NCBI RefSeq assembly: GCF_000183745.1
Contig: NC_014761.1
Span: 1,240,001-1,304,000 of the forward strand
Length of the DNA stretch: 64,000 bases
Direction of reading: 5' to 3'
DNA from: Oceanithermus profundus DSM 14977
Lineage (GTDB): Bacteria; Deinococcota; Deinococci; Deinococcales; Marinithermaceae
Shown: positions 19,544-23,057 of the stretch, one piece after another
How the letters are laid out: every line of letters starts with the position of its first letter
How positions within the stretch are numbered: the stretch's first letter is position 1
Made by a program: the position numbers and the translations under genes
The notes under the pieces: model-generated
Told to the model about the DNA's origin: nothing
Seen by the model: the letters and a program-made list of their open reading frames with translations, nothing else
Databases searched by the model: none

Positions 19544-19845
19544 GCCCGAAGACCGTATTGGACGACGCACGCAAGGTGTTGCAGGCATTGGATTACGAGG
19601 TCTGGGAGAACGAAGACGGCCTCGAGGCCGAGCGCCGCCAGGTGGGGCTGGTCTACCGGGTCTACTACGCCCCCTCGGGCGACCTCAAGCTGGAAAAGGT
19701 GCGCAGCAAGCCCGAGGAGGTGCGGGAGGCGCTGCTCGCGGACCACCACGGCCAGTTCGTGCGCCAGGAAGAGGTGCGCGAGTCGTTCTTCACCGTTTGC
19801 AAGCCGGGGGAGCTGCTCGAGCTGCTCAAGGCCTGGGAAGCTTGA
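19540..19845 (+). CDS. Hypothetical protein, co-transcribed with the PLD-like gene
   Basis: 101 residues, MSPKTVLDDARKVLQALDYEVW. Mixed alpha/beta, charged, with no signal peptide, cysteine cluster or motif I recognise beyond one cysteine near the end. The ATG overlaps the preceding stop (19540-19543), with GGAGG in front, so it is a real coupled gene. Its stop codon lies inside the -35 box of the aspS promoter. Confidence 0.7.
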   Translation: MSPKTVLDDARKVLQALDYEVWENEDGLEAERRQVGLVYRVYYAPSGDLKLEKVRSKPEEVREALLADHHGQFVRQEEVRESFFTVCKPGELLELLKAWEA

Positions 19846-19870
19846 CCCATGCAAGAAATGCGCATACACT
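19842..19870 (+). promoter_or_regulatory. Promoter of the aspS leader
   Basis: -35 TTGACC (19842-19847) and -10 TACACT (19865-19870) with a 17-base spacer. The predicted start of transcription at about 19877 lies only a few bases before the leader-peptide ATG at 19880. Confidence 0.75.
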
Positions 19871-19879
19871 TGCATTAGC

Positions 19880-19909
19880 ATGCGCGGCTTGCTGAATAAC
19901 GACCGCTAG
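19880..19909 (+). CDS. Putative aspS attenuation leader peptide (Asn-Asn-Asp)
   Basis: A nine-codon reading frame, MRGLLNNDR, starting about 3 bases after the predicted transcription start and ending with TAG immediately before the G-rich arm of the antiterminator. Codons 6-8 are AAT AAC GAC, for Asn, Asn and Asp. These are exactly the two tRNA species charged by a non-discriminating AspRS. GCGG (19884-19887) can pair with CCGC (19903-19906) as a pause hairpin across the coding part. Too short to prove by coding statistics; the argument is position and codon content. Confidence 0.6.
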   Translation: MRGLLNNDR

Positions 19910-19910
19910 C

Positions 19911-19959
19911 GGGGGAACGTGGCCTTCCCCCCGGTTCCCTTTTGAACCGGGGGCTTTTT
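19911..19959 (+). promoter_or_regulatory. Antiterminator/terminator pair in the aspS leader
   Basis: The terminator stem is 10 bp (19928-19937 with 19944-19953, loop CCTTTT) followed by CTTTTT. The competing stem GGGGGAA (19911-19917) with TTCCCCC (19925-19931) takes the first four C's of the terminator, so only one can form. A ribosome halted at the Asn/Asp codons leaves the GGGGGAA arm free (readthrough). One that reaches the TAG covers it (termination). Confidence 0.65.
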
Positions 19960-19976
19960 CGTGAAAGAGGACGACG

Positions 19977-21251
<1,275 letters not shown>

Positions 21252-21277
21252 GGGCGGTGCATGGTGCGTGGTGCGTC

Positions 21278-21310
21278 GTAGCGGCGGACCTATGTGTCCG
21301 CCCGGCTTGT
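21278..21310 (+). repeat. CCGCCC hairpin repeat, copy 1
   Basis: A short hairpin element of the form GGCGGACC-TATGTG-TCCGCC followed by CGGCTTGT. Copies occur at 22658-22691 and, inverted, at 24586-24616. Confidence 0.6.
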
Positions 21311-21443
21311 AAAAACAGGATGTGGGAGGTTGGATGTGGGAGGTAGGTTTTGTTTTTTAAAGGTATACAAGCGGGTTTGGCATAGTTTGTCAAAGCAAGA
21401 AACTAATTTTCTCACTCCCTACCCCCTACACCCTAGGCCCCGG
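21311..21443. repeat. Fold-back element, copy 1 (133 bp)
   Basis: Begins AAAAACAGGATGTGGGAGG (21311 on) and ends with the complementary-type pyrimidine run TCCCTACCCCCTACACCC (from 21414). An AT-rich centre of about 55 bases separates the arms. It is followed by a GGCGAAGCCGACC tail that also follows copy 2. Confidence 0.6.
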
Positions 21444-21670
21444 CGAAGCCGACCAATCGGGGCCCATGCCGCGCCATGTCTCCACGGTTGAGTTTGCGGC
21501 TCCGTCACCCAACCATGCTTGCTGGCTAAAGGCTTGATTCGCGGCAGCCGAATCTCGGCTTATCGTCCAGCATGGACCCCGGATCAAGTCCGGGGCAGGC
21601 CCTGAATCGAGTTCAGGGCAGGCTCCCGGATCTCCCCCGGCTAGTTGCCTCGGCCGTCCGGGGATACGGG

Positions 21671-21804
21671 AAAACGGGAGGTAGGAGGTGGGGTGTGGGG
21701 TGTAGGTTTTGCTCAAAATAAGTCTGCTGGCGAGAGGTCGTGGGCGGAAGCTCGGATACGAAGCTTGATTTTCCCACCTCCCACCCCCTACAACCCACTT
21801 CCCG
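21671..21804. repeat. Fold-back element, copy 2 (134 bp)
   Basis: Same architecture and almost the same length as copy 1: a purine arm (21671-21711), a central unique stretch, and a pyrimidine arm (21768-21804). Then come about 50 bases closely matching those after copy 1 (21801-21851 versus 21440-21490). The copies lie 360 bases apart in direct orientation. Confidence 0.6.
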
Positions 21805-21864
21805 GCGAAGCCGACCCATCGGGCCCACGCCGCGGCATTGCCCCACGGTTTGGTCACCGCACGA

Positions 21865-22035
21865 TGAAACGCCCTCCCCTAGGGGAGGGTCGGGGTGGGG
21901 GTTGTTGGCGCTAACGAAACCATCGCCCATCATTCGAATCGTGGCCAACCCACATCCCACCCCCGACCCCCTGCATCCTCAAAAAACAACCCCCCTCCGG
22001 CCTGCGGCCACCTCCCCCAAGGGGGAGGTAGAAAA
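21865..22035. repeat. CCCTCCCCTAGGGGAGGG-bounded element, copy 1 (171 bp)
   Basis: The left end carries CCCTCCCCTAGGGGAGGG followed by TCGGGGTGGGGG. The right end carries CCTCCCCCAAGGGGGAGG in inverted sense, preceded by AACCCCCCTCCGG. A second copy lies at 56247-56430. No open frame of note inside. Confidence 0.6.
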
Positions 22036-22150
22036 GCCGTTCGTGGCATCGGGTACGCGGTATCGGGTAGACAGCAAGGACATGCCGACAGAGGCCGCCT
22101 GCTCTAAGAATGACGTCTCAAAACTGCCACTAAACAAGAACGAAGCGGTC

Positions 22151-22555
22151 AGCATGCTCTAAGCTCTGGATCCCCCGCTTTCGCGGGGGCAGGTACAGCT
22201 CGTGCAGGTCTACGACCTGCTTGGCTGGAATGACGTGCTAGCTAGCGGTAAAAAAGATTGTGGGGGCTCGCAAAATCAAATGCGACAAACTTTGGCAGCC
22301 AGAATGCCCGTCAATTTCATGCCCAGCCAAACGCTAGTAGCCATGGAACGCACTACGCTCCGACAGTCTTCTACTCCTCCCGTCATCCCAGGTGAGCGGC
22401 GAAGCCGCGCGACCACAGGTCCTGACCGAGTCACCAGCCCGTGACAGGGGTTGCGTCAACGTTCTGGAAAATCGGTTTGTGGTCCGTAGCCTTTGACCTG
22501 TGGCAGGCCGGTCTATGACAACGAAACGTCGGCTTTGCGCACGGCAAGGACCCCG
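22151..22555. repeat. Long repeat module F, copy 1 (about 405 bp)
   Basis: Runs from GCTCTGGATCCCCC through GACCTGCTTGGCTGGAATGACG, TGGAACGCACTACGCTCCGA, CGTCATCCCAGGTGAGCGGC and GTTGCGTCAACGTTCTGG to CGAAACGTCGGCTTTGCG. The same order with moderate divergence is at 56462-56836. A 34-base segment (22430-22463) recurs exactly at 22557-22590, starting a partial second tail copy. Confidence 0.65.
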
Positions 22556-22556
22556 G

Positions 22557-22800
22557 GTCACCAGCCCGTGACAGGGGTTGCGTCAACGTTCCGGAAAAGC
22601 AGAGTGGGGCTCGTGACCTGTGGAAAATCATCGCGCAGTACGTGGTACGTAGTACGCGGTAGGGGCGGGCCCGTGTGCCCGCCCGGCTTGTTTGGGGCCT
22701 GTAGCTCGTGGCTCGTAGCCTGTGGTAGGCCCGTCAACGGCAACGAAACGTCGGCTTTCTGCCCGGCACGGACCCCTGCTTTCGCAGGGGCAGGACCCGG
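22557..22800. repeat. Partial module F tail interrupted by a CCGCCC hairpin repeat
   Basis: Repeats the tail of module F (GTCACCAGCCCGTGACAGGG to ACGAAACGTCGGCTTTC). At about 22625-22705 it contains a hairpin element GGGGCGGGCCC-GTGT-GCCCGCCC that is absent from the neighbouring copy. It looks like one repeat inserted into another. Confidence 0.5.
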
Positions 22801-22895
22801 ATCGAGCCCGGAGCAAGCCCCGGATCGGATCGGGTGCGGGCCCAGAACCCCGATGCGCGCGTCGAGGCGATGAGGTGTGATCGTACGGCGCCCGC

Positions 22896-22938
22896 GAGAT
22901 CCCGGATCTCGCCCCTCGGGGCTCGTCTGGGATGACGA
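22896..22938 (-). repeat. GTCATCCC...GGATCTCG repeat, minus orientation
   Basis: Reads on the minus strand CGTCATCCCAGACGAGCCCC then GGGGCGAGATCCGGGATCTC. Related copies are at 43360-43404 and 43837-43874, and shorter forms lie inside the F modules (22380, 56671). Confidence 0.6.
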
Positions 22939-23057
22939 AAAGGGAAAACCCTGTCGTTTCGTGAAAGGAAGCATTGCAAAGACGATCGACGGGCTGCAGC
23001 AGCGACAGAATAGACGTCCGGAACCGCGCTGCTGAACGGCTCGGGCGGCCCGGGTGC

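Follow-up and report, generated by a model that had tools for sequence, protein, structure and literature searches.

A probable leader-peptide attenuator of the tRNA-dependent asparagine pathway upstream of aspS2 in Oceanithermus profundus and its relatives

Results

A candidate attenuator precedes aspS2

The aspS2 gene of Oceanithermus profundus DSM 14977 encodes a second, archaeal-type aspartyl-tRNA synthetase (AspRS2), and the region directly upstream of it very probably controls the tRNA-dependent asparagine pathway by ribosome-mediated transcription attenuation. The analysis shows the elements of such an attenuator, their conservation, a frame-specific use of codons, a common geometry, a three-way covariation of RNA arms across families, and the identity of the enzyme. 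The gene lies in a window of 64,000 nt (GCF_000183745.1, NC_014761.1, positions 1,240,001-1,304,000), which is the whole stretch of DNA that was analyzed; unlabelled coordinates are positions in this window, on its forward strand.

In the proposed mechanism, where the start of the transcript, the stall, in-vivo termination and the starvation response are predictions, RNA polymerase would make a near-leaderless transcript on which a ribosome begins at once to translate a short frame. With ample Asn-tRNA(Asn) (and Asp-tRNA(Asp)), the ribosome would arrive at the stop codon and cover the GGGGG arm, leaving CCCCC free, so that a terminator would form and transcription would end before aspS2. Under a shortage of Asn-tRNA, the ribosome would stall at the Asn codons, which lie 13-16 nt ahead of this arm; GGGGGAA and TTCCCCC would pair, the terminator would not form and aspS2 would be made. 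AspRS2 would then load Asp on tRNA(Asn) and GatCAB would amidate it to Asn, which would restore the supply.

The promoter of this locus (19842-19870) consists of TTGACC at 19842-19847, a 17-nt spacer and TACACT at 19865-19870, and its -35 box overlaps the TGA stop codon of an upstream 101-aa frame. A promoter of the form TTGACN-17/18-TANNNT occupies the same place in 87 relatives. From the -10 box, a transcript start region is predicted at 19877-19879, around 19877 and 0-3 nt before the ATG, which would make the leader frame leaderless or nearly so. This frame (19880-19909) reads MRGLLNNDR from the ATG at 19880 to the TAG at 19907-19909, with the Asn-Asn-Asp codons AAT AAC GAC in tandem at 19895-19903. 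A single base, C19910, separates the TAG from GGGGGAA, the 5' arm of the antiterminator (region 2; 19911-19917), which pairs with the 3' arm TTCCCCC (region 3; 19925-19931). The latter shares four nucleotides with the 5' arm of an intrinsic terminator (19928-19959), whose 10-bp stem is formed by CCCCCGGTTC (19928-19937) and GAACCGGGGG (19944-19953) and is followed by C and TTTTT (19955-19959). A ribosome-binding site with a GAGG core (19966-19970) and aspS2 itself (19977-21251; 424 aa) complete the locus. The initial annotation had described the promoter, the frame, the one-base gap and both stems just as they are found here. It had also called the stems mutually exclusive; this holds for the full stems because both use 19928-19931, but GGGGG can still pair, more weakly, with CCUUC while the terminator is formed.

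The hairpin at the terminator position was scored as an intrinsic terminator. Its stem has an energy of -20.2 kcal/mol at 37 C and -11.4 kcal/mol at 65 C, compared to -10.7 and -6.0 kcal/mol for the antiterminator. As the terminator is the more stable structure at equilibrium, the antiterminator would have to form earlier than the terminator, while the RNA is still being made. The combination of this promoter with a spacer of 17 or 18 nt and an ATG 6-11 nt past the -10 box occurs once in the window, against 0.01 matches expected from shuffled sequences. The folding energy of this single leader sequence was not unusual relative to shuffles (z = -0.24); relatives were therefore compared, and the case rests on conservation.

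The leader is conserved across the phylum and its frame is rich in Asn and Asp codons

We surveyed 111 genomes of the phylum; the order, class and phylum searches all returned this same set, which is devoid of Deinococcaceae. AspRS2 orthologues were present in 95 of the 111 genomes, and the region upstream of aspS2 was read in 90 relatives. A promoter with a short frame was seen in 84 of these at the first scan and in three more after correction of a misplaced gene start, which gives 87/90. The 87 orthologous leaders have promoter, near-leaderless frame and hairpins in common and come from 26 genera and five families: f1 is the window's own family, f4 the Thermaceae (Thermus, Meiothermus and others), f5 includes the Trueperaceae, and f2 and f3 are smaller. 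Within f4, the label Meiothermus presumably applies to the groups to which we assign it on our own reading. The distance from the -10 box to the ATG is 7-11 nt in all 87. Of the three remaining relatives, one has a cut contig that still reads ...RDDDNRGLGA*, in one the contig ends such that the aspS2 start could not be placed, and in one (G017) aspS2 directly follows a peptidase gene and the leader appears to be missing. One further leader, in G110, is degenerate. The initial annotation had named relatives without Asn/Asp codons or without the competing stem as what would overturn the proposal, and it survived this comparison across 26 genera.

The leader peptides vary outside their Asn and Asp residues, which as a rule sit near the end. 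Among 72 distinct peptides all contain Asn or Asp, 71 contain Asn and 53 contain Asp. Examples are MRGLLNNDR, MALAASRNNDT, MCRCGNDDH, MRWARNNNA, MRPRLLNNG, MRLPQGNDA, MLRADNNL, MLRRRDDNP, MKCFFNNSADDDN and MTHLAFSDDNSGSGRLGA. Asn and Asp together make up 24.6% of the codons in the leader frame; read in the remaining two frames, this DNA has 1.2% and 2.2%. When one and the same scan was applied inside and outside the phylum, a frame of this kind, with Asn/Asp codons next to each other, was found in 75/89 upstream regions inside it, but in 0/57 AspRS2 upstream regions outside. The choice of Asn codon is also distinctive: in f1 and f4, AAT accounts for 40 of the 79 leader Asn codons, whereas the corresponding aspS2 genes use it for 10 of 200 Asn codons (odds ratio 19; the 5% baseline derives from 30 aspS2 genes of these groups). 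The Asp codons of the f1 and f4 leaders showed no codon bias like this shift to AAT. All these codon counts come from leaders that are not phylogenetically independent. Frame-specific conservation of codons suggests that the leader frame is translated.

Two leader layouts obey the same geometric rule

Codon positions were measured from a codon's first base to the GGG core of region 2, the antiterminator 5' arm, and the ribosome was assumed to cover 12 nt counted from the first base of its A-site codon, a reach that is established for Escherichia coli. In the window, the two Asn codons lie at 16 and 13 nt, the Asp codon at 10 nt and the stop codon at 4 nt. Thermus leaders mostly have Asn codons at 14 and 11 nt or an Asn codon at 14 and an Asp codon at 11 nt, with the stop at 5 nt, while Meiothermus leaders mostly read D16 D13 N10 or D15 N12 N9. 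The typical f5 leader reads D27 D24 N21, and here the frame crosses the arm (...LGA*) and stops just past it. Of 80 distinct leaders, 79 have an Asn or Asp codon 13 nt or more away from the arm core, where a stall would leave the arm free, and with the 12-nt footprint a ribosome at the stop codon would cover the core, likewise in 79/80. This rule is thus satisfied by two layouts, with the stop codon either 3-8 nt before the core (f1, f3 and f4) or just after the arm (f5). Because two different layouts obey the same rule, the mechanism is strongly supported.

Geometry and codon counts also bear on which aminoacyl-tRNA is sensed. The initial annotation had proposed that the leader senses the enzyme's own products; this had to be revised, since the ribosome does not read Asp-tRNA(Asn) until GatCAB has amidated it. 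On the revised reading, the leader reads Asn-tRNA(Asn), the end product of the pathway, plus Asp-tRNA(Asp). Asn and Asp codons are indeed both present in the frame, as had been noted, but they are not equal. In a narrower, non-exclusive version of the attenuator, to which we give close to an even chance, only Asn-tRNA is sensed, and AAY-GAY interchange yields the Asp codons as a by-product, or else they act as slow helpers. In line with this, Asn is found in 71/72 distinct leaders and Asp in only 53/72, Thermus leaders mostly contain Asn without Asp, and the rare AAT is enriched for Asn only. Moreover, the Asp codon of the window is marginally placed: as it lies only 10 nt from the GGG core, a ribosome stalled on it would already cover part of the arm. 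Against Asn-only sensing, Asp codons, too, are far above their level in the other frames, and they come first in Meiothermus (D16 D13 N10) and in f5 (D27 D24 N21), where a stall would free the arm most fully.

We give somewhat less than an even chance to a true two-amino-acid sensor, in which the Asp codons report Asp-tRNA(Asp) and the Asn codons the end product Asn-tRNA(Asn). If so, a single attenuator would balance substrate against product in tRNA-dependent amino-acid synthesis, and lineages would weight the two signals by codon order (NN in Thermus, DDN or DNN in Meiothermus, DDN in f5). It would then be the first leader-peptide attenuator known to us for an indirect aminoacylation pathway.

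The competing stems covary across families

The pairs of regions 2 and 3 differ between groups: GGGGGAA/TTCCCCC in the window group, GGGGGGC/GCCCCCC in Thermus, CGGGGC/GCCCCG in f3, and CTCGGGG/CCCCGAG, TTGGGGT/ACCCCAA, GCTTCGGG/CCCGAAGC and CCCCGGGG/CCCCGGGG in f5. Region 2 covaries with region 3 across families, and region 4 tracks region 3. In a swap test, the arms were picked by where they stand with respect to stop codon and hairpin loop, regardless of mutual complementarity, and cognate antiterminator arms paired better than arms swapped among genera (18.8 versus 16.7, sd 0.5, P < 1/2000, one leader per genus). The cognate terminator arms likewise paired better than swapped ones. Cognate antiterminator pairing also exceeded swapped pairing within f5, whereas within f1 and f4 it was no better (P = 0.35) because the arm hardly varies there.

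One f3 leader has a clear protector (1:2) hairpin that spans the Asp codons, with GACGAC paired to GUCGUC (z -3.1). The window shows such a hairpin weakly, and the examples from Thermus and Meiothermus do not show it convincingly. A leaderless frame may be translated at once, which would make a protector hairpin unnecessary.

An intrinsic terminator precedes aspS2 in the window, in f1, f3 and Meiothermus, and in most of f5. The hairpins of all 25 Thermus leaders (for example L043, L050, L131 and L140) are without a U-run, with a mean of 2.1 T in 9 nt versus 5-6 in most other groups, and they end about 21 nt upstream of the start codon. Given these hairpins, termination in Thermus may be non-canonical, or control there may be translational. 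The Thermus arrangement would fit a general translational version of the same architecture, in which the position of the ribosome on the leader sets a hairpin near the ribosome-binding site and no termination takes place. For the leader as a whole we regard this as unlikely, as T-runs follow the hairpin in the window's family (4-6 T) and in Meiothermus (3-6 T), the window hairpin scores as an intrinsic terminator, the ribosome-binding site lies outside the hairpin, and the f5 hairpin is a median of 73 nt away from the start codon.

That aspS2 is instead controlled by a T-box or metabolite riboswitch, with the short frame being incidental, is highly improbable. Many synthetase genes in Firmicutes are under T-box control, which speaks for such an element on a synthetase gene. 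PMC2494555 reports two T-boxes in Deinococcus radiodurans as well. A T-box would, however, not fit into the mere 50 nt or so that are transcribed ahead of the terminator, and the frame-specific enrichment of codons requires translation. Near the window leader, Rfam searches with E up to 1 gave only two matches, both far below the gathering scores, and in 14 relatives the one match at the gathering score was RF03109, downstream of aspS2 in L043. We rejected this candidate, since neither the window leader nor those of the 14 relatives matched the T-box model or any other Rfam family at the gathering score. The RF03109 match itself (L043:1340-1428, minus strand) is a Thermales-rpoB RNA just downstream of aspS2 in a Thermus genome.

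A chance juxtaposition of an upstream terminator and a random short frame would fit the ordinary single-sequence folding energy and the simple G and C runs of the arms, but was rejected as next to impossible given conservation in 87/90 relatives, frame-specific Asn/Asp codons, fixed geometry and the negative control outside the phylum (0/57).

AspRS2 is the predicted entry to asparagine synthesis

Thermus thermophilus and Deinococcus are textbook bacteria that keep an AsnRS alongside a mischarging second AspRS with GatCAB. The aspS2 product of O. profundus scored above the NCBIfam cut-offs of TIGR00458 (408.8 bits versus 368.4) and PRK05159 (566.9 versus 353), and its nearest solved chain is T. 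thermophilus AspRS2 (PDB 1n9w/3kfu, E 9e-207), where 3kfu is the Asn transamidosome. By these family and structure matches, it is a non-discriminating AspRS (aspartate--tRNA(Asn) ligase) that is predicted to aspartylate tRNA-Asn. The earlier proposal of leader-peptide attenuation of a non-discriminating AspRS is well supported, having survived the comparison across 26 genera.

The O. profundus genome also encodes AsnRS, a bacterial-type AspRS and GatB. Its tRNA-Asn carries a U1-A72 pair, which the two-step pathway requires (PMC4206432). In D. radiodurans and T. thermophilus, a second AspRS makes asparagine on tRNA-Asn together with GatCAB (PMC4206432). AsnA is absent from all 111 genomes of the phylum, and no full-length AsnB was found in the O. 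profundus genome, where the sole PF00733 match is weak and spans 57 residues. Because GatB, AsnRS and a U1-A72 tRNA-Asn are present while both asparagine synthetases are absent, AspRS2 with GatCAB is the predicted asparagine route. We think it best to regard AspRS2 as catalysing the first step of asparagine synthesis, and to regard the leader as an attenuator for that pathway. Since AsnRS and a bacterial AspRS are present as well, and AsnA and a convincing AsnB are not, the sensible reading is that the leader controls the supply of asparagine and not that of AspRS in general. By inspection, AsnB-like genes in Meiothermus showed no link to the leader codons; DDN and DNN leaders occur with or without a full-length PF00733 protein.

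In the window's family, the AsnRS gene (asnS) has no such leader (loci L011-L022). We know of no description of how the decision is made when to run the indirect route. An Asn/Asp-codon attenuator on the mischarging enzyme, and none on AsnRS, would mean that this route is switched on by a lack of Asn-tRNA, and that the cell restricts mischarged Asp-tRNA(Asn) to times of need. At these same asnS loci a -10-like box lies a few nt before the ATG, and asnS itself looks leaderless.

Relation to known attenuators

The mechanism proposed for the aspS2 leader is of a known kind; its client and predicted effector are unusual. Ribosome-mediated attenuators are known from the trp, his, leu, thr, ilv and pheA genes of E. 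coli, with multivalent codon sets in ilv and thr. Like these amino-acid attenuators, the aspS2 leader has a short frame with tandem regulatory codons, on which the ribosome would choose between antiterminator and terminator. It differs from them in its client, a synthetase for tRNA-dependent amino-acid synthesis, in its predicted effector, Asn, in its near-leaderless frame of 7-11 codons (f1 and f4), and in having a strong protector stem only in f3. Closer in phylogeny, attenuation by a leader peptide has reportedly been shown experimentally for the lysine gene cluster of T. thermophilus. That leader belongs to the same phylum, has cognate codons and sits before homocitrate synthase, but it combines Lys codons with a lysine biosynthesis gene instead of a tRNA synthetase. 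Leaders of this kind were seen in the present data (MKYREAKKLYAGGAG and MAWLAKKLSAGG).

Among synthetases, pheST of E. coli is controlled by an attenuator. Leader peptides also precede hisS and hisZ in bacilli (PMC2965389). These cases share with aspS2 the leader-peptide attenuation of synthetase-family genes, but their codons are those of one amino acid that is charged by the synthetase itself, whereas the aspS2 enzyme mischarges and its leader codons would read both its own product and the end product of the pathway. The transamidation operon of Clostridium acetobutylicum is said to have a two-codon T-box. It resembles the aspS2 leader as an RNA control of the transamidation pathway that involves two tRNAs, one of them tRNA-Asn, but it binds tRNA directly, without a leader peptide, and responds to Asn and Glu instead of Asn and Asp. 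In the open-access literature we found no account of an aspS2 (AspRS2) attenuator or of an Asn-codon attenuator, although priority is not certain.

The promoter-frame pattern occurs at nine places in the O. profundus genome. Besides aspS2, four of these are leaders of argG (MKRRARRLH), homocitrate synthase (MKYREAKKLYAGGAG), ilvB (MHAFASIILRPALGLVLGRGGGGLLT) and leuC (MTYARALTLIPPPRG), with cognate codons and a hairpin-like sequence downstream, and the same is seen in relatives (loci L192, L193, L194 and L198 in the O. profundus genome outside the window; L206, L212, L217 and L222 in relatives). Since the architecture is shared while the codons follow the pathway, these leaders serve as an internal control. 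This suggests that leader-peptide control built on near-leaderless frames is a wider habit of the phylum (Arg, Lys, Leu, Ile/Val and Asn).

Several minor observations were made along the way. The near-leaderless frames with cognate codons were seen before argG (Arg), leuC (Leu), ilvB (Ile/Leu/Val), and homocitrate synthase and lysJ (Lys). At loci L191 and L219, a three-codon frame, MIL, with the same kind of promoter and a hairpin precedes a 470-aa frame that resembles a membrane protein. The AAT at 19895-19897 of the window is a rare Asn codon. Finally, about 1.7 kb separate aspS2 from the next clear gene (21252-22970), a stretch with short repeated motifs (GGTGCGTGGTGCGT and similar), and similar repeats are located near aspS2 in L003.
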